DNA from: Desulfuromonadales bacterium
Lineage (GTDB): Bacteria; Desulfobacterota; Desulfuromonadia; Desulfuromonadales; BM103
Reading direction: 5' to 3'
Assembly (NCBI GenBank): GCA_030145195.1
Contig: JAQYVY010000031.1
Span: 1 to 43,888, forward strand
DNA length: 43,888 bases
Shown here one piece after another: positions 1,811 through 43,714 of this stretch (position 1 is the first letter of the stretch; each line of letters begins with the position of its first letter). A program made the translations under genes and the position numbers. Below the pieces are notes generated by a model. It was not told the origin of the DNA. It saw nothing but the letters and a program-made list of their open reading frames with translations, and did no database searches.

Positions 1811-3034
1811 TTATATCTGATCATTGGGTTCAGGCAAAAAAGCACCCAGCAACTGCACCTCTACTTCCTCGCCAGCGGCGAACTCATGCCGTTCCATCGG
1901 CAGCATCGCCACCGCGTTGGCTTGCAGTGATGTCGACAAGATCCCTGACTTTTGATCCCCGGCGCTGTACGCCACCAATTGCTGACCCTCCTGACAGAGC
2001 CGGATGCGCAGCAGGTTGAGCCGACCGGGTTTCTTGCGGACCGACTCCTTGAGAACCGCCTTAAGCAGCGGCCGGAGAATGTTGCGGTGGCCCATCATCT
2101 TCAGCAGCGCCGGACGCACAAATTGTTCAAAGACCATGAGCGCCGACACCGGGTTGCCGGGGAGAGAAAACACCGGCCGACCGTTGAGGAGACCAAAAGC
2201 AGTCGGGTAGCCAGGCTTAAGCTGAATTTTCCAGAAAAGCTCCTGCCAGCCCAACTCGCAGAGCACCTCTCTGACCAGATCCCGTTCACCAGCGGAAACC
2301 CCTGCAGAGGTGATCAAAACATCGGCCCCGGCCGCCTTAAGCAACGAGCCCATGAGACTCTCGCGGTCATCGCTGGCGATGCCAAGTAATTGGGGAACGG
2401 CTCCGACCGCCTTGACCGCAGCACCCAGGGCAAAAGAGTTGCTGTCGGAGACCTGGCTGGCAGCAAGCGGTTGTCCCGGAGCAACCAGTTCGTCGCCGGT
2501 GGAGAGGATTGCAACGCGGGCTTGACGGTGAACGCTGACTAAACTCTGCCCCAAAGCGGCCAGAACGCCGAGTTCAACTGGACCAAGCACGCTCCCGCTA
2601 GCGAGCGCAGCTTGACCGGCGCCCACATCTTCCCCCCGGGCACGGATATGATCGCCCTTACAAACTTTGCCCGGGATTGAAAGGCGCTCGCCCTTGAGCT
2701 CAGCAAGCTCAAACGGAACCACCGCATCGGCACCGGGCGGCACCGGCGCGCCGGTCATGATTCTGGCTGCGGAATCAGGTGCGATGGCGGGTTCGGGCTG
2801 CCCTCCGGCCAGGATACAGCCGGTCACAGCCAAAGTGGCCCCGGAAACACAATCTTTGGCCCGCACGGCATAACCGTCCATGGCCGAATTATCCCACAGC
2901 GGCAAATCCCGGGACGCAACGACGTCCTGAGACAAAGCCTGACCGAGCGCATCAAGCAACGGTCGGTCTTCAGTCTCCAGAGAGACGCAGTTGTCCAGAA
3001 TCAGGCACCGGGCCTCTGCAAAGCTCACAGCCAT
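1811..3034 (-). CDS. moeA: Molybdopterin molybdenumtransferase MoeA
   Basis: A 407-residue protein of normal MoeA length. MoeA inserts molybdate (or tungstate) into adenylated molybdopterin in the cytoplasm. Seen motifs in order: DNSAMDGYAV near residues 48-57, the RARGEDVGAG stretch near 130, ILSTGDELV near 175, TSAGVSAGERD near 245, and PGNPVSALMVFEQFVRP near 290, followed by the C-terminal domain. It lies 17 bases downstream of tupC on the same strand, so transporter and insertase are probably co-transcribed. With AOR and TupABC as neighbours, tungsten is the likelier metal, but that is inference. Confidence 0.95.
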   Translation of the reverse strand: MAVSFAEARCLILDNCVSLETEDRPLLDALGQALSQDVVASRDLPLWDNSAMDGYAVRAKDCVSGATLAVTGCILAGGQPEPAIAPDSAARIMTGAPVPPGADAVVPFELAELKGERLSIPGKVCKGDHIRARGEDVGAGQAALASGSVLGPVELGVLAALGQSLVSVHRQARVAILSTGDELVAPGQPLAASQVSDSNSFALGAAVKAVGAVPQLLGIASDDRESLMGSLLKAAGADVLITSAGVSAGERDLVREVLCELGWQELFWKIQLKPGYPTAFGLLNGRPVFSLPGNPVSALMVFEQFVRPALLKMMGHRNILRPLLKAVLKESVRKKPGRLNLLRIRLCQEGQQLVAYSAGDQKSGILSTSLQANAVAMLPMERHEFAAGEEVEVQLLGAFLPEPNDQI

Positions 3035-3051
3035 TCAACACTCTCCATAAA

Positions 3052-3726
3052 TCATACCGCCAGACCAGCAGCGCGTGCAGGCTCAATCCTGCCGGCGTTC
3101 AGAGCTATAACCTTGGCATTCAAGCGCTCGGGCAACGCTGGATCATGGGTTGCAAAAACAACGGTTGTGCCGCGTTGCCGCAAACTCTGGACCAGAGCTT
3201 CAAATTTTGGCAGGCTATCGTTATCGACATTGGCTGTCGGTTCATCAAGCAACAGCAGTCTGACATTTAACACCACGGCACGGGCCAGAGCAACCCGCCT
3301 CGCCTCACCAGTAGAAAGCTCTGAGACATGCCGGGAATCAAGTTCCGTGATCCCCAGCAACGCCAGCGCTTCGGCAATGCGGAGACGCTGTTCATGGCGC
3401 TGAACGCCACGGAGCTTGAGACCATAAGCCAGATTCTGATGCACCGTGCCGGTGAAGAGGTACGGGGCTTGATCCACCAGCGAAAGCTCTTGCCGCATCC
3501 TCCGTCTGGCACTGTAGCCACTCACTTCCGCGCCAGCGTAACAGAGGGTACCGCCAGCGGGCGCTTCAAGCAGGGCCATGATTCGGAGTAAAGTGCTCTT
3601 GCCTGAACCGTTAGGACCGGTCAGGGCATAGACGTTCCCCTCTTCCAGAGCGAGCCGCTCAACCCGCAGCGTAAACTCGCCTTTACGAGAATCGATATTT
3701 TCTAACGCAAGGATCGGTGACATCAT
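3052..3726 (-). CDS. tupC: Tungstate ABC transporter, ATP-binding protein TupC
   Basis: This 224-residue ABC ATPase has Walker A GPNGSGKST near residues 38-46, the signature LSTGEARRVALARA near 136-149, Walker B LLLLDEPTANVD near 157-168 and the H-loop ATHD near 193. It follows the permease gene directly: tupB ends at 3727 and tupC starts at 3726. Substrate assignment comes from the neighbouring TupA and TupB, because ABC ATPases of this type look alike. No molybdate-binding TOBE domain is present, as expected for the short TupC/WtpC-like form. Confidence 0.9.
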   Translation of the reverse strand: MMSPILALENIDSRKGEFTLRVERLALEEGNVYALTGPNGSGKSTLLRIMALLEAPAGGTLCYAGAEVSGYSARRRMRQELSLVDQAPYLFTGTVHQNLAYGLKLRGVQRHEQRLRIAEALALLGITELDSRHVSELSTGEARRVALARAVVLNVRLLLLDEPTANVDNDSLPKFEALVQSLRQRGTTVVFATHDPALPERLNAKVIALNAGRIEPARAAGLAV

Positions 3727-4413
3727 CTACTTTTGCTGCAGCACATTGAGAAAAACATTGACCATCAGGGCCACGGTCATCAGCACCAGCCCCAGCGCCA
3801 GCCCGAAGGCAAACTCGCCCTTACTCGTCTCCAACGCGATTGCGGTCGTCATGGTCCGGGTATAACCACGGATATTGCCTCCCAGCATCATGGCCACCCC
3901 GACTTCGGCGATGACTCTGCCGAAAGCAGCAATCACCGCAGCCATGACGCCGAAACGGATTTCCCGCAGCAGCCGCAATTGACTCTGCAGCGGTGAGGCC
4001 CCAAGCGTCAGGGCCGTCGGCAGGATTCTTGGATCAGCACCGGCCACAGCCACCAGGGTATAATTGGCGACAATCGGCGTTGCCAACACGGTCTGGCCAA
4101 CAATCATCACCCAGGGGGTAAACAGCAACCCCCAGCTCCCCAGGGGACCCTGACGACTGAACAAGCCGAACAACAGCAGGCCCACGACCACCGTCGGCAG
4201 GGCCATCAGGGTGTTGAGCAGGGTCACCACCAGGCGACGCCCGCGAAAATAACTGGTTCCCAGCAGCATCCCGGCCGGCACTCCGAGAAGCGACGCCAGC
4301 AGCAAAGAGCAGACTGACGTGTAGACAGAGACGCCCACGGTCGATAAGACCTCTGGATCAAACGTCAGGATCAGGTTGAGCGCCGCGGCCACAGAATCAA
4401 ACAGATATTGCAA
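3727..4413 (-). CDS. tupB: Tungstate ABC transporter, permease TupB
   Basis: A 228-residue, strongly hydrophobic inner-membrane protein with about five or six predicted membrane segments. The EAA-type loop that contacts the ATPase is visible as ALTLGASPLQSQLRLLREIR near residue 135, followed by GVMAAVIAAFGRVIAEVGVA, which is typical of TupB/ModB-like permeases. It lies 9 bases after tupA and abuts tupC. Order tupA-tupB-tupC-moeA on one strand supports a single transcript. Confidence 0.9.
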   Translation of the reverse strand: MQYLFDSVAAALNLILTFDPEVLSTVGVSVYTSVCSLLLASLLGVPAGMLLGTSYFRGRRLVVTLLNTLMALPTVVVGLLLFGLFSRQGPLGSWGLLFTPWVMIVGQTVLATPIVANYTLVAVAGADPRILPTALTLGASPLQSQLRLLREIRFGVMAAVIAAFGRVIAEVGVAMMLGGNIRGYTRTMTTAIALETSKGEFAFGLALGLVLMTVALMVNVFLNVLQQK

Positions 4414-4422
4414 CGCTCCTCC

Positions 4423-5223
4423 CTATTGCGCAACAAAGAAGAGCTGCTCACCACTCTTACGAAAACCGCTGATCAACGCACGCGCCGGAGCAGACACCAG
4501 GTAATCACAAAAAGCCTTGGCCAGCAGATAGTTGACATGAGGTTGTTGAGCCGGATTCACCGGAATCACACCATAGGCATTGAACAGCCGACGATCACCG
4601 CTGAGGATGACTTCGAGTTCAAGCTTGTCTTTGAAAGCCAGGTAGGTACCACGATCACAGAGGGTGTAAGCCATGCGTTCGTTCGCCATCACCAGAACTT
4701 CTCCCATGCCGCGACCGGCTTCAAGATACCAACTGCCCTCGGGAGTGACACCGGCTTCACGCCAGAGTTGCCGCTCGCGAAAATGGGTGCCCGATTCATC
4801 ACCCCGTGAGATAAAGTCGGCGGTGGATGCCGCAATGCGGGCAAAAACCGTTGTGACATCAGCATCCCCGCGGAGCCCCGCCGGATCGGTTGCCGGGCCG
4901 AGCACAACGAAGTCGTTATACATCACGTCACTGCGGGCAACGCCAAACCCGGCGGCAACAAAGGCCTCTTCCTGAGCACGGGCGTGCACCAGCACCACAT
5001 CAACATCACCAGTTTCACCTAGCTTGAGCGCCTTACCGGTACCGACGGCGATCACATCGACATGACAGTCCTGTGCGGCTTCAAAGGGTGGCAGCAAGAG
5101 ATCAAGCAGCCCAGAATTTTCGGTTGAGGTCGTGGTCGCCAAGCGCAGCCGTTCAAGCGCCAGCGCCTGGCACGGCAGACATAATATTCCGATGAGGGAT
5201 AAAACAGCAAAACTTCTTAACAA
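4423..5223 (-). CDS. tupA: Tungstate ABC transporter, periplasmic binding protein TupA
   Basis: A 266-residue exported protein with an N-terminal signal peptide (hydrophobic core up to ALA-LE near residue 23). The mature part opens with LATTTSTENSGLLD, the TTTS-type oxyanion-binding motif that marks TupA and separates it from ModA. Further TupA-like stretches are GTGKALKLGETGDVDVVLVH near 62-81 and SRGDESGTHFRE near 138-149. The start codon is TTG at 5223, chosen because AGGAG stands 7 bases upstream. A GGGTT-AC-AACCC palindrome lies 64 bases upstream at 5287-5298 and may be an operator. Confidence 0.92.
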   Translation of the reverse strand: MLRSFAVLSLIGILCLPCQALALERLRLATTTSTENSGLLDLLLPPFEAAQDCHVDVIAVGTGKALKLGETGDVDVVLVHARAQEEAFVAAGFGVARSDVMYNDFVVLGPATDPAGLRGDADVTTVFARIAASTADFISRGDESGTHFRERQLWREAGVTPEGSWYLEAGRGMGEVLVMANERMAYTLCDRGTYLAFKDKLELEVILSGDRRLFNAYGVIPVNPAQQPHVNYLLAKAFCDYLVSAPARALISGFRKSGEQLFFVAQ

Positions 5224-5286
5224 CTTATGACTCCTGATAGATTTTCAAGCAACAGACTCGGTCAGACTCCGCCAAAAAACAATACA

Positions 5287-5298
5287 GGGTTACAACCC
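5287..5298. promoter_or_regulatory. 12-bp palindrome upstream of tupA, possible operator
   Basis: The plus-strand sequence GGGTTACAACCC is a perfect 5-bp inverted repeat around two bases, 64 bases before the tupA start. A metal-responsive repressor site would be expected in this place, but the sequence does not match a ModE site that I recognise, and no regulator gene is adjacent. The 9-mer GTTACAACC recurs at the start of the moaD-like gene, where it may be chance. Functional role is speculative. Confidence 0.25.
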
Positions 5299-5306
5299 AA
5301 ACAAAA

Positions 5307-5440
5307 GTTAGCCACTAAGTCACCAAGACACGGAGTCAATCCTGGTATTTTTCTGTAAACATCATAATGGCAAGATCGAAAAGATTGTTCTTTACCCTAT
5401 AAAACGTACTTCTTGGAGCCTTTATGTCTTAGTGGCAAGT
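5307..5440. repeat. Intergenic imperfect inverted repeat, copy 3 (longer centre)
   Basis: The left arm GTTAGCCACTAAGTCACCAA matches the 1556 family, and the right arm contains TTATGTCTTAGTGGC. The centre is longer and unrelated. It occupies most of the gap between the nitronate-monooxygenase-family gene and tupA. No gene is visible in this 290-base gap. Confidence 0.6.
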
Positions 5441-5513
5441 ACAAACTTTTTTAGGCATAGGACCGAAACAATATGTCAGCAAAGCGAACAAATTGTTTGC
5501 GCGAGAAGATGGC

Positions 5514-6494
<981 letters not shown>

Positions 6495-10706: not shown

Positions 10707-11480
10707 CTAGGCGAGTACGCCCGTCTTTTCTTTGAGAATCTGCACCAACTGATCGGCGATAGCGCCGACATCGCCTTCCAACACCAATCCGCCGCCTTTC
10801 TTCTCCGGGACATACATCTTGACGGTCTCCTGCCGGGCACCATCCTGAAGCAACGTGGCGACTTCGAGGGTGAGCAGTTCCTTCTTTTTGGCCTTCATGA
10901 TGTTGGGCAGAGTCGGATAGCGCGGGGTATTCAGTCCAAGCTGGCAGGTCAAAAGAGCTGGCGCCTGAGTCTTGATGATCGCCCGCAGGCCGCCTTCCAG
11001 TTCCCGCTTGGCAGTGATCTGACCATTATCAAAGGCGAAGTCGACAATGGTGCTGACACTGGGCAACCCGAGCATCTCAGCCACCAGCACCCCGACCTGG
11101 GCGCTGCCGCGATCTTGCGACTGCATCCCGGTAAAGATCAGGTCAAAACCCTTATCGCGGGCAAAGGCAGCGATAATTGACGCGATTTCAAAGGGGTCTT
11201 TTGCGTAAGAGGCATCATCATTGACATGCACCCCGCGATCACAACCCATGGCAAGCGCCTTCTTCATCGTCTCCTTGACCTTGTCAATGCCGATCGAGAG
11301 CACCGTCACATCGGCTTCACCAACCTGGTCTTTCACCTGGACCGCCTGCTCGACAGCGAACTCGTCATACTCATTCATCCGCCAGGCCAGATCGACGTTG
11401 TCATACCACTTGCCTTCGGTGTTCACTTTGAATTTCGATTCCATGTCCGGAACCTGCTTTATGCACACCAGAATTTTCAC
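10707..11480 (-). CDS. etfB: Electron transfer flavoprotein beta subunit EtfB
   Basis: A 257-residue protein beginning MKILVCIKQVPD, the standard EtfB opening, with NEYDEFAVEQAV near residues 37-48, FTGMQSQDRGSAQVG near 116-130 (the AMP or second-FAD loop region) and a C-terminal arm rich in Lys (IMKAKKKEL) that contacts EtfA. The start is GTG at 11480 with GGGGTG upstream. Whether this Etf is bifurcating cannot be decided by eye; the adjacent quinone-linked Fe-S protein favours the non-bifurcating electron-carrier role. Confidence 0.95.
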   Translation of the reverse strand: MKILVCIKQVPDMESKFKVNTEGKWYDNVDLAWRMNEYDEFAVEQAVQVKDQVGEADVTVLSIGIDKVKETMKKALAMGCDRGVHVNDDASYAKDPFEIASIIAAFARDKGFDLIFTGMQSQDRGSAQVGVLVAEMLGLPSVSTIVDFAFDNGQITAKRELEGGLRAIIKTQAPALLTCQLGLNTPRYPTLPNIMKAKKKELLTLEVATLLQDGARQETVKMYVPEKKGGGLVLEGDVGAIADQLVQILKEKTGVLA

Positions 11481-11555
11481 AATTCACCCCCGGCTGACTG
11501 ATTAACGGTTGAAGTCATCAACAAATCCATAAAGGAGACAGGATACTTGACTATC

Positions 11556-13617: not shown

Positions 13618-16272
13618 ATGACGTACCAAACTGCCGTTAAGATCTTTTTGATTCTTCTATTTATCATATTACAAGGATGTGTCGGTGCGAGACGTTCGGA
13701 GGTTGCAATAAACCCCAAATTGGGACACATGCACAAGATGGCTGAGAACATCAATGACCTGATCAATGAGGGAATAAACCCAGAGAGCAAAAAAACACAG
13801 GAATTGACAGAAGATGAAAAAGACGCCCTGGTCAAGAAATGGTTTAACGAGGGCTATACGTCCTGGGAGGCGTCCGGGCTCAGTGGAAGCATCGCTATCA
13901 GCTCAAGTTTCAGTGATAATGTTTATGCTATCTACTCTCCAATCATCAGTTACTTTGAGGGCAAGGGCCGAATAGGTGAAGCAATCCCCTACCTCAAAGA
14001 GGGCAGTGCCGAGGCTTTAGAGAACCTCGTCATCGGCACCTACCTGGAGTGGCAAATAAAACTGATCGATGCCTACAACGCACTGGGACAAATCGATCTT
14101 GCTGAGAATGAAATCGTCAATCTCGAGAGAATCATACCGGAATATTTCGACTGCGACTTTGATGCAGACCTTCGCCAGTATGACAACCTGACAGTCTTCG
14201 TCAACATCGCTGTTCATCGGGTCAGACTTGATTTTTTGTTAAAGCAGGGCCGTGACATTGAGGTCCCGCTTTGGACGAAGAGATATAAATTTTTAAAATC
14301 GGCAACACAAACATATCCAGAGATAAGAAACTTTGAAGCCGATTCCCGACTGGATGGTCTCACTTTTCTAGTAGGCACTACAATGAAGAAATATGGAGGC
14401 GATAACTCCTATGACCGGATGAATGACAAATATTTCTTCACCTACGCGAAGCTGTTTAGTCTGAATGGACAGAACACGTTGGCATTTGAAGCTCTTGAAG
14501 AAGTCAAAGCATCTTACCGCATCAACATCAAGCGTCTGAAACTTATCGATTATTACTATGGCGCGTGGAACGGCTCACACAACAAGATGAACGACTCGAC
14601 TCAGCCGTACAGAAGTCGAAGCTGGCTCTATTCAAAAGACGCTGAGATTCAACTCCATCTCGACAACGCGCAGAAAGCTTTGGACCTTCTGCAACAGGCA
14701 AAAGTCGAATTTGCCAAGGTCGAGGAGTTGTACGATAAACTGCCTCCTTTCTACAGGCTGTACCACAAGATCGACTTTGACGCCCTGGAACTCAAATTCC
14801 TCGAAGCAAAAACGCTAGAAAAGCTAGGTCGCCATCAGGATGCGAGCGACCTTTACCGGGATAACATTACTTTTTCTGAAAAAATCCGACAGAGCCTTCC
14901 GGTGGAAGAAAGAAATCAGTTCTTCAGATCAACAGCCCAGGAAAGCTACTTCGGGCTCCTGCGATGCGCTACGGCACAATATATGGATAACCGTAGCAAT
15001 GAAACCTTCTCACAAGTTATTGCTGCGGCAGAGAACTTCCGCTCCCGGCAGCTTCGGGAAATGTTACAGAGCGATGACACCACCGACGTTCAGAATATCA
15101 ACTTGACCACTCTCCGCACGCAACTGCCGCAAAAGAGTGGCGCACTGCTGATCGTCGACATGGTCGAATCCTGTCTGGTGGCCTTCTTCGACGGCAAGAC
15201 CCACTCGGTCCATCTCTTCGCAAAAGAGGCTGCCTGGGATCAAAACATCTTCAAACTGCGCAACCGTCTGGCCGAAAACCAGCAGTTCGACTACGCCGGA
15301 TTACGCGAAATATCCCGCCAGGTCTTCACCGGGATCGAGGAACACTTAAGCGAAACAGATCGACTCTATGTCCTGTCCGACGGCGCCCTATCGGCCCTGC
15401 CGCTGGAGATCTTCCCGATCTGGACCAACTCGATTCTCGCCGATCTGACCACGGTCTCCTACCTGCCCTCGCTCGCCCTGCTCGGCCAAAGTTCATCAAG
15501 CAACCATGACAAGCAGCTATTTGCTGTGGCCGACCCAGTCTACAACGCCCAGGAAACCATTGACCGCCATATCGGGCGAGGGGTGATGCAGGCCACCAGG
15601 GGTAGCAGCGAGTTGAGCATGTTCCAGGCTCTGCCCGAGACCCGCGACGAGGTTCAGGACATCTTGACCGGCTTTACCAATAAGGGCTCAATGCTGCTCG
15701 GTAGCGAAGCCAAAGAGAGTAACGTCAAAACGATGGACCTGTCCCCCTACTCCCACATACATTTTGCAACCCATGGCGTCATCGGCGGCGAGATCCCAAC
15801 CCTGACCGAACCGGCGTTGGTGCTTTCCTACGAGGACGGTGAGGATGGTTTCCTGACCGCCAGCGAAGTCTCGAAACTCAACTTGAACGCCGACATGACC
15901 GTCCTTTCAGCCTGCAACACCGGTAACGGTAAATATTTCCGTGGCGAGGGTTTGATGGGGATTGGCCGCGCCTTCATGGTGGCCGGTTCCAAACAGGTCG
16001 TCGTTTCTCTGTGGCCAGTTGACTCCATGGCAACCAAAGAGTTGATGGTCAGCTTTTACCAGCAAATGGCCAGAGGATTGGATGCCCCCGCAGCTCTTGC
16101 AGCGGCAAAGCGTCAATACTATATGACAAACAAGCAGCAGCGAGAGGTTGAATCGGCCAGAGGGATTGGACGTAAGAGAATAAAGTCTTCTGGCGACACT
16201 CCGAAGCGCTTCAAGCAACGCGGCAACCCCTTCTTCTGGTCACCCTTCATCGTGATCTCGGCTGAGGGTTGA
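13618..16272 (+). CDS. TPR-CHAT protease with lipoprotein signal
   Basis: An 884-residue protein. Residues 1-21 (ending FIILQGC) form a lipoprotein signal with Cys21. TPR-like helical repeats run from about 120 to 440, for example QAKVEFAKVEELYDKL and LEKLGRHQDASDLYRDNI. The C-terminal third is a CHAT (caspase HetF-associated with TPRs) peptidase domain: HFATHGVIGGE with the presumed catalytic His719, VLSACNTGNGK with Cys766, then EGLMGIGRAFMVAGSKQVVV and the closing NPFFWSPFIVISAEG. CHAT proteins are usually cytoplasmic, so lipid anchoring is odd. AGGAG lies 8 bases before the ATG. The protease's target is unknown; the two preceding lipoproteins are the natural candidates for partners or substrates. 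Confidence 0.92.
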   Translation: MTYQTAVKIFLILLFIILQGCVGARRSEVAINPKLGHMHKMAENINDLINEGINPESKKTQELTEDEKDALVKKWFNEGYTSWEASGLSGSIAISSSFSDNVYAIYSPIISYFEGKGRIGEAIPYLKEGSAEALENLVIGTYLEWQIKLIDAYNALGQIDLAENEIVNLERIIPEYFDCDFDADLRQYDNLTVFVNIAVHRVRLDFLLKQGRDIEVPLWTKRYKFLKSATQTYPEIRNFEADSRLDGLTFLVGTTMKKYGGDNSYDRMNDKYFFTYAKLFSLNGQNTLAFEALEEVKASYRINIKRLKLIDYYYGAWNGSHNKMNDSTQPYRSRSWLYSKDAEIQLHLDNAQKALDLLQQAKVEFAKVEELYDKLPPFYRLYHKIDFDALELKFLEAKTLEKLGRHQDASDLYRDNITFSEKIRQSLPVEERNQFFRSTAQESYFGLLRCATAQYMDNRSNETFSQVIAAAENFRSRQLREMLQSDDTTDVQNINLTTLRTQLPQKSGALLIVDMVESCLVAFFDGKTHSVHLFAKEAAWDQNIFKLRNRLAENQQFDYAGLREISRQVFTGIEEHLSETDRLYVLSDGALSALPLEIFPIWTNSILADLTTVSYLPSLALLGQSSSSNHDKQLFAVADPVYNAQETIDRHIGRGVMQATRGSSELSMFQALPETRDEVQDILTGFTNKGSMLLGSEAKESNVKTMDLSPYSHIHFATHGVIGGEIPTLTEPALVLSYEDGEDGFLTASEVSKLNLNADMTVLSACNTGNGKYFRGEGLMGIGRAFMVAGSKQVVVSLWPVDSMATKELMVSFYQQMARGLDAPAALAAAKRQYYMTNKQQREVESARGIGRKRIKSSGDTPKRFKQRGNPFFWSPFIVISAEG

Positions 16273-16366: not shown

Positions 16367-16404
16367 CGGCTTCCGGCTCCGGTCTTTGCTGAGAGCTGAA
16401 TTCA

Positions 16405-16533
16405 GTGGCTAACAAACAAAAGCGGCCCACCCAGAATGCTCTGGAGGGGCCGCTTTGTGAGAAATTTCGAGAACTCTCTCAAGGCAACAGCTACATCGCT
16501 ACTATAGTTGGTATGGGACGATAATCGAACTCG
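16405..16533 (-). repeat. Direct repeat: decayed copy of the tRNA-Leu 3' end plus its terminator
   Basis: These 129 bases align almost end to end with 18579-18709. They contain a terminator hairpin (AAAGCGGCCC at 16419-16428 with GGGCCGCTTT at 16447-16456, and an inner CCAGA/TCTGG stem), then TCTCAAGGCAACAGCTA, then a damaged tRNA 3' end in which the T-arm CGAGTTCGATTATCG and the CCA remain readable on the minus strand. The acceptor strand is altered (CCCATA where the intact gene has CCCGGGTA) and the 5' half is missing. It is the left member of a direct repeat that brackets hipBA. Confidence 0.8.
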
Positions 16534-16858
16534 ATTTTAGGGGACATTCTATATCGCCCCAGTCAACACAAAAGATTAACCCTGTAAAACCGCATGTTAA
16601 AAATGCAGTCTGATTCTTCACGCAAATCTCCCTCTGTTTTCGTTCCGGCGTTCGTCTCACATCTTGGCGAATCTTGAGCGACCTCGTAAAAGAACTTCGG
16701 ATCGGCGCGTCTTTATAACTGGCAATGATGGCATTGCCTGCACCAAGGCGTGCAGTAGGCCAGCTTTGCCTTGCTTGGCGATCACCGGATGTCTTCTATT
16801 ATCCCCGTAGGTGGGTCAATTTTGCATGCCGATTAACACTTTGTCTAAAGAAACCACA
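16534..16858. other. Gene-free stretch with a possible insertion-sequence end
   Basis: No ORF is supported here. The segment GGTGGGTCAATTTTGCATGC, followed by CGATTAACACT (about 16811-16841), resembles terminal sequences of IS21-type elements, and the preceding bases could be decayed transposase, but neither reading frame gives a recognisable protein. The stretch lies between the left tRNA fragment and the hipA stop. Confidence 0.3.
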
Positions 16859-18049
16859 TCAGCGGCTCAGATAGTCATCAATTTCAGAAAACTGCTCAAT
16901 ATCCTTTTGCATCACTCCACAGGCATTAAATTCTTCACGCCATCCTGCCACAGCAGTAAAAACCTGCTCGACAATTTCAACAGCACCCGAGACACCCCAG
17001 ACCCGACCCATCCGCTCCAGGTTAGCCCGCCCCGGATAGACCGGATCGAGATCAAAGAACAGAACGTGCTCGCCTCGCTGTCCGATGTCCGGGACCAGGT
17101 CGAAGGCTGGCGACAACCTCCACCCCTCTTCACAGGTGCATGTCATCCAGAAGTTCTTCAGATGATCGTCGGTATTGTGTACGACTGCATTAAAAGCCAT
17201 CTGACGAAACAACCGTTCAGAATCGACTTGCGGGTCAGCACTGACCTTGCGCATCACGTCCAGGAGGTCAGTATATCGCGCATGATAGTACCCCGTAGCC
17301 TTGAGCAGTGTTTGCAGGCTGACCATGTGGCGCCGCCCCTGCGGCAAAATATCGAAACGCTCAACCAGCAACACCGGACGGCTGCCGCATTCGATCAGTT
17401 TTGTCGACGGAACGTCTAACCCAGCTTTTTTTGCCAAAACCATTGTCGCCGCTTCTATACGCACCACGTCGACATTGTCTTTGATACTCGGAAATTTGGC
17501 GAGGTAATGTTTGTCGGCCTGTTCGTCATGAACCAGAGCCTTGGGACGCGCTCCGCCTGGCGAACTTCCTGCACCAAGCAGCAGGTTGATATCAATATCA
17601 GATTTGTCACCACGCTCAAAAGCCTCAGCACCCCGCACCAGACGATCAAGATTCAAGACAGAAGCTTCCGATACTATTCTCTCCGGAACACCCTGCTCAG
17701 CATACGATAGCGCACCAAGCCCTGAAGCACCCAACTTGAGGAGAAGATTCGCCAGAATTTGCTGATGGAGAGGAATATCATTCTTACGAACCAATAAGCG
17801 CCGTCCCCAGACGTCAGGGAGACTGTCTTCGAACACTCCGAAAACACCTGGATGCTCGACATTGAATTCACCTTCACCCAACGGCAGGGAAACCGGGTCA
17901 AGTGCGAAGGCACCTGTATGGTTTAAATAGTCGGGCACATAACGAAAAGCTCCACGCCCCCTGCCATCGCCACCAATTTCGCAAACCATCTCTCCGGCAA
18001 GGACTTGGTTCGCTTTAAGAGTAACCCAGACTTCGATTCGATTGATCAT
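16859..18049 (-). CDS. hipA: HipA-family serine/threonine kinase toxin
   Basis: A 396-residue protein of usual HipA length. The N-terminal subdomain contains HPGVFGVFEDSLPDVWGRRLL near residues 66-86. The kinase core has the flexible SSPGGARPK loop at 162-170, VERF at 229-232, the catalytic HNTDDHLKN at 291-299 (D294 presumed catalytic) and the metal-binding SPAFDLVPD at 313-321. In Escherichia coli, HipA phosphorylates glutamyl-tRNA synthetase and induces dormancy; other HipA proteins hit other targets. All the expected active-site residues are present, so it looks intact. It overlaps hipB by four bases (ATGA), with antitoxin first. Confidence 0.93.
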   Translation of the reverse strand: MINRIEVWVTLKANQVLAGEMVCEIGGDGRGRGAFRYVPDYLNHTGAFALDPVSLPLGEGEFNVEHPGVFGVFEDSLPDVWGRRLLVRKNDIPLHQQILANLLLKLGASGLGALSYAEQGVPERIVSEASVLNLDRLVRGAEAFERGDKSDIDINLLLGAGSSPGGARPKALVHDEQADKHYLAKFPSIKDNVDVVRIEAATMVLAKKAGLDVPSTKLIECGSRPVLLVERFDILPQGRRHMVSLQTLLKATGYYHARYTDLLDVMRKVSADPQVDSERLFRQMAFNAVVHNTDDHLKNFWMTCTCEEGWRLSPAFDLVPDIGQRGEHVLFFDLDPVYPGRANLERMGRVWGVSGAVEIVEQVFTAVAGWREEFNACGVMQKDIEQFSEIDDYLSR

Positions 18050-18354
18050 TTTCCACCTTTACGCGATGCGCGCTGGCGTTTCGGTTTTTGTGTCTGCTCG
18101 TATTTGTCGAAAAGACTCTCTTTCGGCATAAGCAACCGATCAAGGTCCTCCACATGCCCGAGGAGATCCAAAGCCACTGCCCAGTGCCCAAGCTGCACCT
18201 TGTGATCACCGTTCTCCATCTTATAGAGTGTCGGGACACTTACACCAATGCGTGAGGCAAAGACCTTCTGCGTCTCATTACGTTGCAAGCGTTCCTCGCG
18301 CAACCGGGCGCCAAGAGCCTTTAAGCTTTCCGTGACCGAACCTGAGACTATCAT
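18046..18354 (-). CDS. hipB: HipB-family XRE antitoxin
   Basis: A 102-residue DNA-binding protein whose helix-turn-helix is visible as ETQKVFASRIGVSVPTLYKM. It neutralises HipA and represses the operon. ATG 18354 is chosen over GTG 18363 because TTAGG stands 8 bases upstream of it. The basic C-terminal tail (QTQKPKRQRASRKGGK) is longer than in the E. coli protein and may contact DNA or HipA. An inverted repeat over the promoter at 18380-18414 is the likely binding site. Confidence 0.88.
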   Translation of the reverse strand: MIVSGSVTESLKALGARLREERLQRNETQKVFASRIGVSVPTLYKMENGDHKVQLGHWAVALDLLGHVEDLDRLLMPKESLFDKYEQTQKPKRQRASRKGGK

Positions 18355-18379
18355 TTTCCACACCTAACCATAAGCATAA

Positions 18380-18414
18380 TTTGCATTATCCATAAATTTT
18401 CTAGTTTATGCAAA
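18380..18414 (-). promoter_or_regulatory. hipBA promoter overlapped by a candidate HipB operator
   Basis: Inverted half-sites TTTGCAT (18380-18386) and ATGCAAA (18408-18414) coincide with a minus-strand -35 TTTGCA (18414-18409) and -10 GATAAT (18390-18385), spaced 18 bases. A further half-site-like GCATAAT lies just downstream. A repressor bound here would block polymerase, as in other hipBA operons. The site and role are read from pattern only. Confidence 0.5.
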
Positions 18415-18578
18415 CTATATTTACTATTATCAGGACACAGTAGAAACTGACGGCAAAGAAGATTTAACAAGACAGATTGTTCTATGGGAACCATGAGTCC
18501 CCTATTGGAAGACAACGGTGACAACACAAAAAACGCCCGAATGGTAATCAGCCGGTCGTTTGCAGAGGAATGAACCAG

Positions 18579-18709
18579 GTGGGTAATAAACAAAAATGGC
18601 CCACCCAGAAGACTCTGGAGGGGCCGTTTTGTGAGAAATCCCGAAAAATTTCTCAAGGCAACAGCTAAGTCGCTGTTATAGTTGGTACCCGGGACGAGAA
18701 TCGAACTCG
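18579..18709 (-). repeat. Direct repeat, right copy: tRNA-Leu 3' end and terminator
   Basis: Right member of the repeat pair with 16405-16533. It includes the intact 3' end of the tRNA-Leu gene and 104 bases downstream. The two copies differ at scattered positions, so the duplication is not recent. The stretch 18415-18578, upstream of hipBA, contains no gene I can support. Confidence 0.8.
18593..18630 (-). terminator. tRNA-Leu terminator
   Basis: AAAATGGCCC (18593-18602) and GGGCCGTTTT (18621-18630) pair with one mismatch; CCAGA/TCTGG forms an inner stem. On the minus strand the hairpin is followed by a T-rich run (TTTTTGTTTATT). It lies about 50 bases past the tRNA 3' end. Confidence 0.65.
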
Positions 18710-18769
18710 TACAGGATTGCTCCCGAGGGATTTTAAGTCCCTTGCGTCTACCAGTTCCGCCACCCGGGC
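18683..18769 (-). tRNA. tRNA-Leu (anticodon UAA)
   Basis: The 87-base minus-strand gene begins GCCCGGGTGGCGGAA and ends CCCGGGTACCA. The acceptor arm pairs GCCCGGG with CCCGGGT, the anticodon stem-loop is AGGGA-CTTAAAA-TCCCT giving anticodon UAA, a long variable arm CGGGAGCAATCCTGT marks a class II tRNA, and the T-arm is ACGAG-TTCGATT-CTCGT. CCA is encoded. A degraded copy of the 3' end lies 2.2 kb away at 16405. Confidence 0.97.
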
Positions 18770-18833: not shown

Positions 18834-19037
18834 ATGCAGGACACTTTTATTTGCCCTCATTGCGGCAAACCGGGTCAACGCTACCGCAACCCCTTTCCGA
18901 CCGTGGACATCATCATACGAATCGCAGATCAAATTGTTCTGATTGAGCGCCGCAACCCACCTTTAGGTTGGGCTCTCCCTGGTGGCTTTGTCGATCTTCA
19001 GGCGGATTGTCGTGAGGCTTCTGCCGAGAAGAAATGA
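18834..19037 (+). pseudogene. Truncated Nudix hydrolase
   Basis: GGAGG then ATG opens a 67-codon frame. It has a small zinc-ribbon start (CPHC, without the second pair that would close it) followed by the Nudix beta strands VDIIIRIADQIVLIERRNPP and GWALPGGFVD. The frame should continue through the Nudix box (GX5EX7REUXEEXGU) for about 100 more residues, but after GGFVD it passes into unrelated residues and stops. The Glu residues that bind metal are lost, so the product is not expected to hydrolyse nucleotides. It runs convergently into the mqnA 3' end and overlaps it by 40 bases. Confidence 0.75.
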
Positions 19038-42877: not shown

Positions 42878-43714
42878 CTACCCACAAAAAGTGGACACGT
42901 TTAATTGAGCAAACTGCTGCTCAAACTTATGCGGACTGACATAACCAAGCGAGGAATGACGCCGCATCCGATTATAGAATATTTCGATATACTCAAACAC
43001 CCCGGCCTTTACTTCATCGACGGTCTTGTAATCCTCAGCGTAGATCAATTCCACCTTCAAGCGGCTGAAGAATGATTCCATCACTGCATTGTCCCAGCAA
43101 TTTCCCTTGCGGCTCATACTGCAATCGATATCGTAGTTTTTGAGTGCTTCCTGGTACTCATTGCCCCGGTACTGTACACCACGATCCGAATGGATCAGGG
43201 TGTTACCCTTTGGCTCTCGTTGCGAAACAGCCATATCGAGAGCTTCAAGGATCAGACTTTCACGCATGTGTCTTTCCAGCGACCAGCCAACAACCTTCCG
43301 CGAGAAAAGATCGACCACCGCTGCAAGGTATAACCAGGTGCGGCCAACCCTAATGTAGGTGATATCGGAAACCCACTTCAAGTTTGGGGCCGGAGCCTTA
43401 AAGTTCTGCCGCAACACATTGGCGCTAATATTGGTCTTGGCTTCCGTGCGCGGAAAGTAACGAAACCGCTTGCCGTTGCGAGCTCGTAAGCCTTGTTCCT
43501 TGAGCAGATCAGCCACATGGTTTCTGCTGCAGGCGATCCCTAGCTCGTTCAACTCAACAGTCAGTCGTGGAGCCCCGTAGCGCTTTTTGAAGAGTTTGAA
43601 GGTTGACTCGACCGCTATTCTAACGCGCTCCCTTTGCAGTTCACGTAGGCTGAAAGGTCGCTTCAGCCAGTCATAAAAACCTGACCTAGAGACCGAAAGA
43701 ACACGGCACATCAT
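42878..43714 (-). CDS. IS3-family transposase OrfB
   Basis: A 278-residue DDE integrase-type protein. An HTH-like region (residues 1-100, including SRSGFYDWLKRPFSLRELQR and RYGAPRLTVELNELGIACSR) precedes the catalytic rve domain: WVSDITYIRVGRTWLYLAAV (first Asp), HSDRGVQYRGNEY near 172-184 (second Asp) and VMESFFSRLKVELIY near 206-220 (Glu). The in-frame sequence continues upstream to 43790 without a stop, so the natural product is probably an OrfAB fusion made by -1 frameshifting; ATG 43714 is a nominal start. Confidence 0.95.
   Translation of the reverse strand: MMCRVLSVSRSGFYDWLKRPFSLRELQRERVRIAVESTFKLFKKRYGAPRLTVELNELGIACSRNHVADLLKEQGLRARNGKRFRYFPRTEAKTNISANVLRQNFKAPAPNLKWVSDITYIRVGRTWLYLAAVVDLFSRKVVGWSLERHMRESLILEALDMAVSQREPKGNTLIHSDRGVQYRGNEYQEALKNYDIDCSMSRKGNCWDNAVMESFFSRLKVELIYAEDYKTVDEVKAGVFEYIEIFYNRMRRHSSLGYVSPHKFEQQFAQLNVSTFCG

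Follow-up and report, generated by a model that had tools for sequence, protein, structure and literature searches.

A 43,888-nt stretch of a Desulfuromonadales genome (contig JAQYVY010000031.1, positions 1 to 43,888, hereafter the window) contains a small islet in which a toxin-antitoxin pair, hipBA, lies between an intact tRNA-Leu(UAA) gene and a displaced copy of the 3' end of that gene. On balance, we favor the view that this islet is a remnant of a mobile element, flanked by attachment site (att) repeats, devoid of an integrase and reduced to its toxin-antitoxin pair, which makes it similar to a cis-mobilizable element (CIME). The parts of this view differ in strength: integration at the tRNA gene is well supported, the shrinkage of a larger island to its present size is plausible, and hipBA would most likely have persisted through addiction, i.e., post-segregational killing.

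The tRNA-Leu repeat and the hipBA pair

An earlier first-pass annotation, made from the sequence alone, described a direct repeat of 129 to 131 bases at tRNA-Leu. Alignment, BLAST and shuffling all bear this repeat out. When gaps are allowed, it extends over 158 columns with 81.6% identity (BLAST E values from 1e-39 to 1e-35), its alignment score is 172, whereas 200 shuffles gave 30 at most, and none of the three self-matches of the window at E 1e-3 is longer. The length given originally fits the ungapped core, which is 129 nt long (16385-16513 and 18559-18687, 81%), but falls short of the full repeat. The tRNA on the left is indeed reduced to its 3' end, as previously described, and a terminator-like hairpin is found in each copy. 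The intact tRNA and the displaced fragment share the same orientation (Table 1). In the source genome, tRNA-Leu(UAA) appears to be a single-copy gene, judging by one match among the matches listed in an order-wide search with the 87-nt tRNA. We infer that the left copy is the original 3' end and that the right copy came in with the insert, on the basis of a search in which the source genome is the sole representative of its genus.

The two genes between the copies have the features of a HipBA type II toxin-antitoxin system: hipB and hipA overlap, the antitoxin contains a helix-turn-helix (HTH) domain, and the adjacent HipA_C kinase has its catalytic motifs and an N-terminal Couple_hipA domain. 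In contrast to these shared features, the sequence is distant from that of E. coli HipA (41.8 bits to chain 3tpd_A), and we regard the islet protein as a putative toxin. Comparison with hipA from a related genome, G008, gave a dN/dS ratio (nonsynonymous to synonymous rates) of 0.11, a rough value given the dS of 1.26, which indicates that the protein is under purifying selection. (Here and below, G labels denote genomes, where G000 is the source genome and the others are relatives, and L labels denote individual loci.)

The first-pass annotation stated that only hipBA and its control region are enclosed by the repeat. These are the sole genes there, but the enclosed DNA also contains stretches that recur in the source genome or in other genomes, one of which (around 16795-16845) resembles what we take to be an IS21-type end. 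No integrase was seen between the copies, either in the open reading frame (ORF) lists or among the Pfam matches, as had been reported earlier; the integrases of the source genome are on other contigs. Matches from PADLOC and NCBIfam at this locus were weak, below cutoff or uninformative.

Table 1. Features of the islet, with positions in the window
Feature	Position	Strand	Basis
Intact tRNA-Leu (anticodon TAA), integration target	18683-18769	-	ARAGORN, Rfam RF00005
Right repeat copy: last 27 nt of the tRNA and 131 nt of 3' flank	18552-18709	-	158-column alignment
Left repeat copy: approximately 27 nt from the tRNA 3' end, with flank; probably the original 3' end, displaced	16379-16533	-	Alignment
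Terminator-like hairpin behind the intact tRNA, followed by a T-rich stretch	18590-18632	-	Folding, -21.9 kcal/mol
Terminator-like hairpin within the left copy	16419-16456	-	Folding, -27.6 kcal/mol
Likely promoter and putative HipB operator; AT-rich, imperfect inverted repeats, e.g., TTTGCAT / ATGCAAA	18364-18445	-	Five orthologs compared by eye
hipB, antitoxin, 105 aa, HTH; 4-nt overlap with hipA	18046-18363	-	ORF list, Pfam HTH_31/HTH_3
hipA, putative toxin kinase, 396 aa; motifs GAGSSPGGARPK, HNTDDHLKNF and FDLVP intact	16859-18049	-	Pfam HipA_C (145 bits) and Couple_hipA; alignment with E. coli HipA
Segment enclosed by the repeat copies, 2,018 bp, G+C 0.499 (window 0.492)	16534-18551		Base composition
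Remnant of a dispersed repeat, immediately adjoining the tRNA remnant on the left; 74% copy on G000:C65	16539-16618		Sequence search
Stretch common to several relatives at 83-88%	about 16795-16845		Sequence search

Inserts at tRNA-Leu(UAA) in related genomes

In this order, tRNA-Leu(UAA) is an integration hot spot. The 87-nt tRNA was searched against 136 genomes of the order, most of them draft assemblies and many of them metagenome-assembled genomes (MAGs), with the source as the only member of its genus; 111 genomes gave matches. An extra interior copy of the tRNA 3' part, 53 to 60 nt long, was found in at least 15 of the 136 genomes (G004, G008, G009, G018, G019, G024, G033, G044, G058, G066, G067, G078, G114, G122 and G129). 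This count excludes copies at contig edges (in G060, G123 and also G019, which has an interior copy as well) and a 23-nt copy in G007, and the left copy of the window itself was not reported by this search. The copy in G033 is a whole tRNA-Leu according to ARAGORN and could be a second gene. In the pairs aligned from 12 relatives, the shared part begins in the anticodon arm, 57 to 60 nt from the tRNA 3' end. Where the tRNA and its copy are on one contig, the inserts range widely in size: 2.5 kb in G008, 3.2 kb in G024, 9.3 kb in G066, 10.8 kb in G067, 13.2 kb in G058, 17 kb in G114, 20 kb in G033, 22.5 kb in G122 and approximately 44 kb in G044, assuming circularity of its single contig. In G004, G009 and G018, the tRNA and the copy are on different contigs.

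A tyrosine integrase gene adjoins the tRNA in G004 and G044, and it adjoins the copy in G066, G067, G058 and G024. Within the aligned part, the integrases of G067, G058 and G024 share 65-99% identity with the G066 enzyme. A second group consists of the G004 and G044 integrases, which are 44% identical to each other. Two sites look empty: the gene after the tRNA encodes a nitronate monooxygenase in G002 and is kdsB (assigned by eye) in G005, where a separate copy of the 5' half of the tRNA is found on a small contig. The first-pass annotation took the repeat as the mark of integration at a tRNA gene and proposed to look in relatives for an empty site or a larger, integrase-bearing island. Relatives gave both apparently empty sites and larger inserts, the latter flanked by copies of the tRNA 3' end and in several cases accompanied by tyrosine integrases; integration is well supported by these findings.

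The repeat was also thought to be longer than normal att cores. While it does pass the terminator, this is not unusual at this tRNA-Leu, where repeats that reach through the terminator span 117 columns at 91% in G024, 125 at 93% in G033 and 174 at 74% in G122. Among 12 folded pairs, the window included, a strong hairpin before a T-rich stretch was found on 11 of the tRNA sides and on 11 of the copy sides; the exceptions are the tRNA side in G004, where the scan reported none although a hairpin is visible by eye, and the copy in G067, where the hairpin is weak and distant. Elements at tRNA-Leu(UAA) thus commonly seem to arrive with a terminator of their own as well as a tRNA tail. Because both ends of the inserts usually carry their own terminator, and long repeats occur in the three relatives named above, the long repeat in the window needs no special explanation.

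One of these inserts, in G008, carries hipBA at tRNA-Leu in the same order and orientation as in the window. The order of genes there is tRNA-Leu, hipB, hipA, an ORF for 116 aa with no Pfam match, the 57-nt copy with its terminator, and a gene for acyl-CoA thioesterase, which in the window lies further to the left. The hipBA pairs of the window and G008 were probably acquired separately, as suggested by protein comparisons. Separate arrivals are favored because HipA of G008 groups with HipA of G134 (85% identity, support 99/98), a member of another family in which hipBA is located near tRNA-Asn, whereas AccC agrees with taxonomy (91% identity to G008 and 80% to G134, both compared with the window). 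A single old insertion followed by transfer to G134 is a possible alternative.

Eight HipA orthologs have at least 72% identity, the source included, and for five of them a tRNA or tmRNA gene is found no more than 4.5 kb upstream; the chance values for five of eight rely on a background of 5-15% that was assumed rather than measured. In the other three, the contig is short or its end is nearby. On a contig binned as Lentisphaerota, HipA (L092, 1127-2314) is 72% identical to that of the window, and on Kiritimatiellae contigs the identity is 62-63%; these cases are either cross-phylum transfers or the result of mis-binning.

Origin of the islet

We propose that a mobile element entered the 3' end of tRNA-Leu(UAA) by site-specific integration. 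The incoming DNA would have carried its own tRNA 3' end and terminator, which would have kept the tRNA gene complete and properly terminated, while the original 3' end and its terminator would have been displaced to the far side of the insert. Subsequent loss of the integrase and the rest of the element would have left hipBA and its control region between att-derived repeats. Recombination between these repeats would delete hipBA; however, a cell that lost it would keep the HipA kinase and make no HipB, and deletants would be selected against. Consequently, the islet probably resists deletion between its repeats. Any mobility of the islet at present would be putative as well. Two relatives hint at a path of reduction. 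The G024 insert, which was found via the tRNA and not via HipA, consists of a shortened integrase, one Fic gene and small ORFs, and it looks like a possible stage preceding such a remnant. In G012, an ORF for 82 aa by the tRNA resembles the N-terminus of an integrase by eye, with no Pfam match.

Several observations weigh against this proposal. The locus has no integrase and no recognizable integrase remnant, and the islet and the window have the same G+C content. A parent element that combines this hipBA with an integrase was not found in 136 genomes of the order or in 395 genomes of the phylum; close HipA proteins are present in 11 of the former, and a HipA match is present in 8 of the latter (the source is included in both counts, and the other seven in the phylum have 41-51% identity). 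In addition, as regards addiction, the stability of SGI1 is reported not to have decreased upon deletion of sgiAT in the absence of the helper plasmid (PMC5704250). The left copy retains 27 nt of the tRNA, not 57-60 nt. On the other hand, it can be read as the usual 58-nt core with an internal deletion of 20 nt, as the six bases that come next, ATTTTA, agree with the tRNA where the edge would be expected (chance of approximately 0.007), and we count this in favor of the proposal. Finally, close hipBA pairs are found with no target repeat in G065 and G106 and with only a dispersed repeat in G067. The first-pass annotation held that its interpretation would suffer from hipBA with the same neighbors at loci lacking the repeat; close hipBA loci with no target repeat do exist, and the pattern covers only some members. 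It also named relatives with the duplicated terminator and no hipBA. No relative with the left flank of the islet and no hipBA was found, and this flank (16385-16700) had no match in phages, which were also searched.

The same layout recurs at other targets. At L148, which is from a Desulfocapsa MAG, hipBA lies behind tRNA-Arg, and after it comes a 108-bp, 88% identical copy of the tRNA 3' end with its terminator. This locus (2527-6315) has three tRNA-Arg 3'-end pieces in a row, the third being degenerate, and a second, small segment with a DUF4143 ATPase, which looks like tandem accretion. In L107, hipBA follows glmS and is in turn followed by a 153-bp copy of the glmS 3' end (87%). Near tRNA-Asn in G134 (L064/L087), hipBA is bracketed by two identical 93-bp copies of an ORF 3' end (L064, 650-742 and 2323-2415), the right one of which replaces the stop codon of hipA, resulting in a 416-aa frame with a tail in common with the upstream ORF. 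G009 (L044), L132 and L145 have a copied tmRNA or tRNA 3' end close to hipBA, along with other genes of toxin-antitoxin type (RelB with ParE, AbiEi with AbiEii, and HTH with an IrrE-like peptidase). For example, in L132, AbiEi/AbiEii and hipBA occupy the segment between tmRNA (11189-11540, minus strand) and a 28-nt duplicate of the tmRNA 3' end, and no integrase was recognized in this segment by eye in the ORF list.

To describe this recurrence in numbers, repeats were scanned in 84 loci (80 HipA loci, the window, and G065, G066 and G067), where L087, L088, L089, L090, L091, L093 and L101 are the places in G134, G008, G042, G009, G094, G133 and G106, respectively, and were counted once. A repeat of at least 45 bits was found in 12 of 74 loci with enough flank versus 10 of 259 control positions. 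Bracketing repeats surround 9 of 76 HipA-like genes, paralogs included, and 5 of 305 other ORFs of the same loci (p 3e-4). Copies of a target 3' end, a class assigned by eye, account for 4 of 76 (the window, L087, L107 and L148) versus 0 of 305 (p 0.0015); with the palindromic L119 cases added, the counts are 5 of 76 versus 1 of 305 (p 0.0014), and a 5 of 77 variant adds G008/L088, where the copy is beyond the 400-base limit. The rest of the nine are palindromic or low in complexity (L100, L116 and L119) or unclassified (L106 and L159). Most of the hipBA loci examined have no bracket made of a target 3' end. The general association between hipBA and tRNA genes is weak: 12 of 80 loci hold a tRNA or tmRNA gene, which is close to the expectation from gene density by our own estimate, with the 3' end of the RNA gene facing hipA in 10 of the 12 (by eye; p 0.02). 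The tRNA-Asn region of G042 and G134 contains several hipA-like genes, and in G042 an orphan 129-nt duplicate of the hipB-hipA junction (88%) was detected (L045, 11819-11947).

The recurrence bears on a different origin, in which hipBA never belonged to a larger island and was a very small passenger, a circle or fragment that carried a copy of the target 3' end and whose insertion relied either on a trans-acting integrase or on homologous recombination in the 3' end common to both. Segments that consist entirely or nearly so of hipBA, bracketed by target 3' ends, are seen at tRNA-Leu (the window and G008), L148, L107 and L064/L087; all of them are co-directional with the target and have no integrase among the ORFs in between. 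The two glmS copies are 13% apart, as would be the case if one of them had been derived from a divergent relative. The source genome also has a tyrosine integrase gene 61 bp after tRNA-Leu(CAA) (L174, 1282-2564; G000:C10), the product of which is 38% identical to the integrase at tRNA-Leu(UAA) in G004 and might act in trans. However, no free form was found, as viral contigs gave no relative (85 pattern-matching stretches) and plasmid matches (701 records) were all below 60% identity to HipA. Furthermore, the G008 insert has the extra 116-aa ORF and the L132 and L044 inserts add further genes, which gradual reduction fits equally well. We consider the passenger origin of the islet unlikely, albeit a serious contender. 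Its generalization, namely that modules of this HipBA subfamily are tiny passengers at gene 3' ends (tRNA-Leu, tRNA-Arg, glmS, and near tRNA-Asn and tmRNA) that supply a replacement 3' end, have no recombinase, rely on trans-acting integrases or homologous recombination and then persist by addiction, is put forward only tentatively; if it is true, island finders that require an integrase would miss such modules.

It is quite improbable that tRNA-Leu and its terminator were duplicated in tandem with no integrase involved, one tRNA then decaying and hipBA lying or landing in between: the repeat does extend approximately 130 nt past the tRNA, beyond the need of a crossover site, no integrase remains, and duplication and integration are indistinguishable by sequence alone, but the same tRNA in relatives takes integrase-bearing inserts with the same kind of repeat, and the recurrence of the layout with hipBA at unrelated targets fits duplication more poorly.

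Relation to known elements and neighboring genes

Minimal mobile elements are small cassettes that have no recombinase of their own and spread via flanking homology. They are flanked by two different conserved genes, whereas the islet is flanked by direct repeats of one target 3' end. A closer counterpart is the CIME, an att-flanked remnant of an integrative and conjugative element (ICE) or an integrative and mobilizable element (IME), as defined in PMC5704250. The islet is similar to a CIME in that it has att-derived direct repeats at a tRNA 3' end and no genes for integration or transfer, only hipB and hipA. It differs in having a toxin-antitoxin pair as its sole cargo, and the likeness is one of layout; descent from an ICE or IME by decay would be a possibility, for which G024 provides a candidate intermediate but no parent element was found in the genomes of the order and phylum, and mobilization in cis would be hypothetical. 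The islet also resembles the tRNA genomic islands of Islander in having an intact tRNA gene and a displaced 3' fragment in the same orientation, but differs from them in lacking the integrase and in a repeat that reaches through the terminator (PMC4383910). According to the same source, Islander rejects candidates that have no integrase or are under 2 kb, and because integrase-less candidates are rejected, remnants of the islet type would not be in its output. Thus, the islet represents a kind of remnant that would be missed by island surveys that demand an integrase. Searches of the open-licence literature listed no paper devoted, judging by its title or the beginning of its abstract, to hipBA-only islets at tRNA genes.

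The islet offers a small natural test of the long-debated question of whether chromosomal toxin-antitoxin pairs persist by punishing their own loss. With a 2-kb pair between recombination-prone repeats and fuller inserts in relatives, deletion could be measured with and without a live toxin.

On the other side of the tRNA, the window contains a shortened Nudix ORF (18834-19037, plus strand; 67 aa) that covers positions 4-44 of the 134 positions of the Pfam model. The corresponding ORF of relatives is 145-160 aa long, and the one in the window stops at a stretch of the GGGGACGGTGTC type. The right end of the window contains an ORF (42878-43714, minus strand) that presumably encodes an IS3-type transposase. 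Immediately to the left of the left repeat copy is an ORF with a CHAT domain (13618-16272, plus strand). We considered this region as a second islet and rejected it, as the self-comparison of the window revealed no further att copy leftward. The 3' half of the CHAT ORF has a second copy elsewhere in the source genome (G000:C44:7678-8941), with 89% DNA identity.

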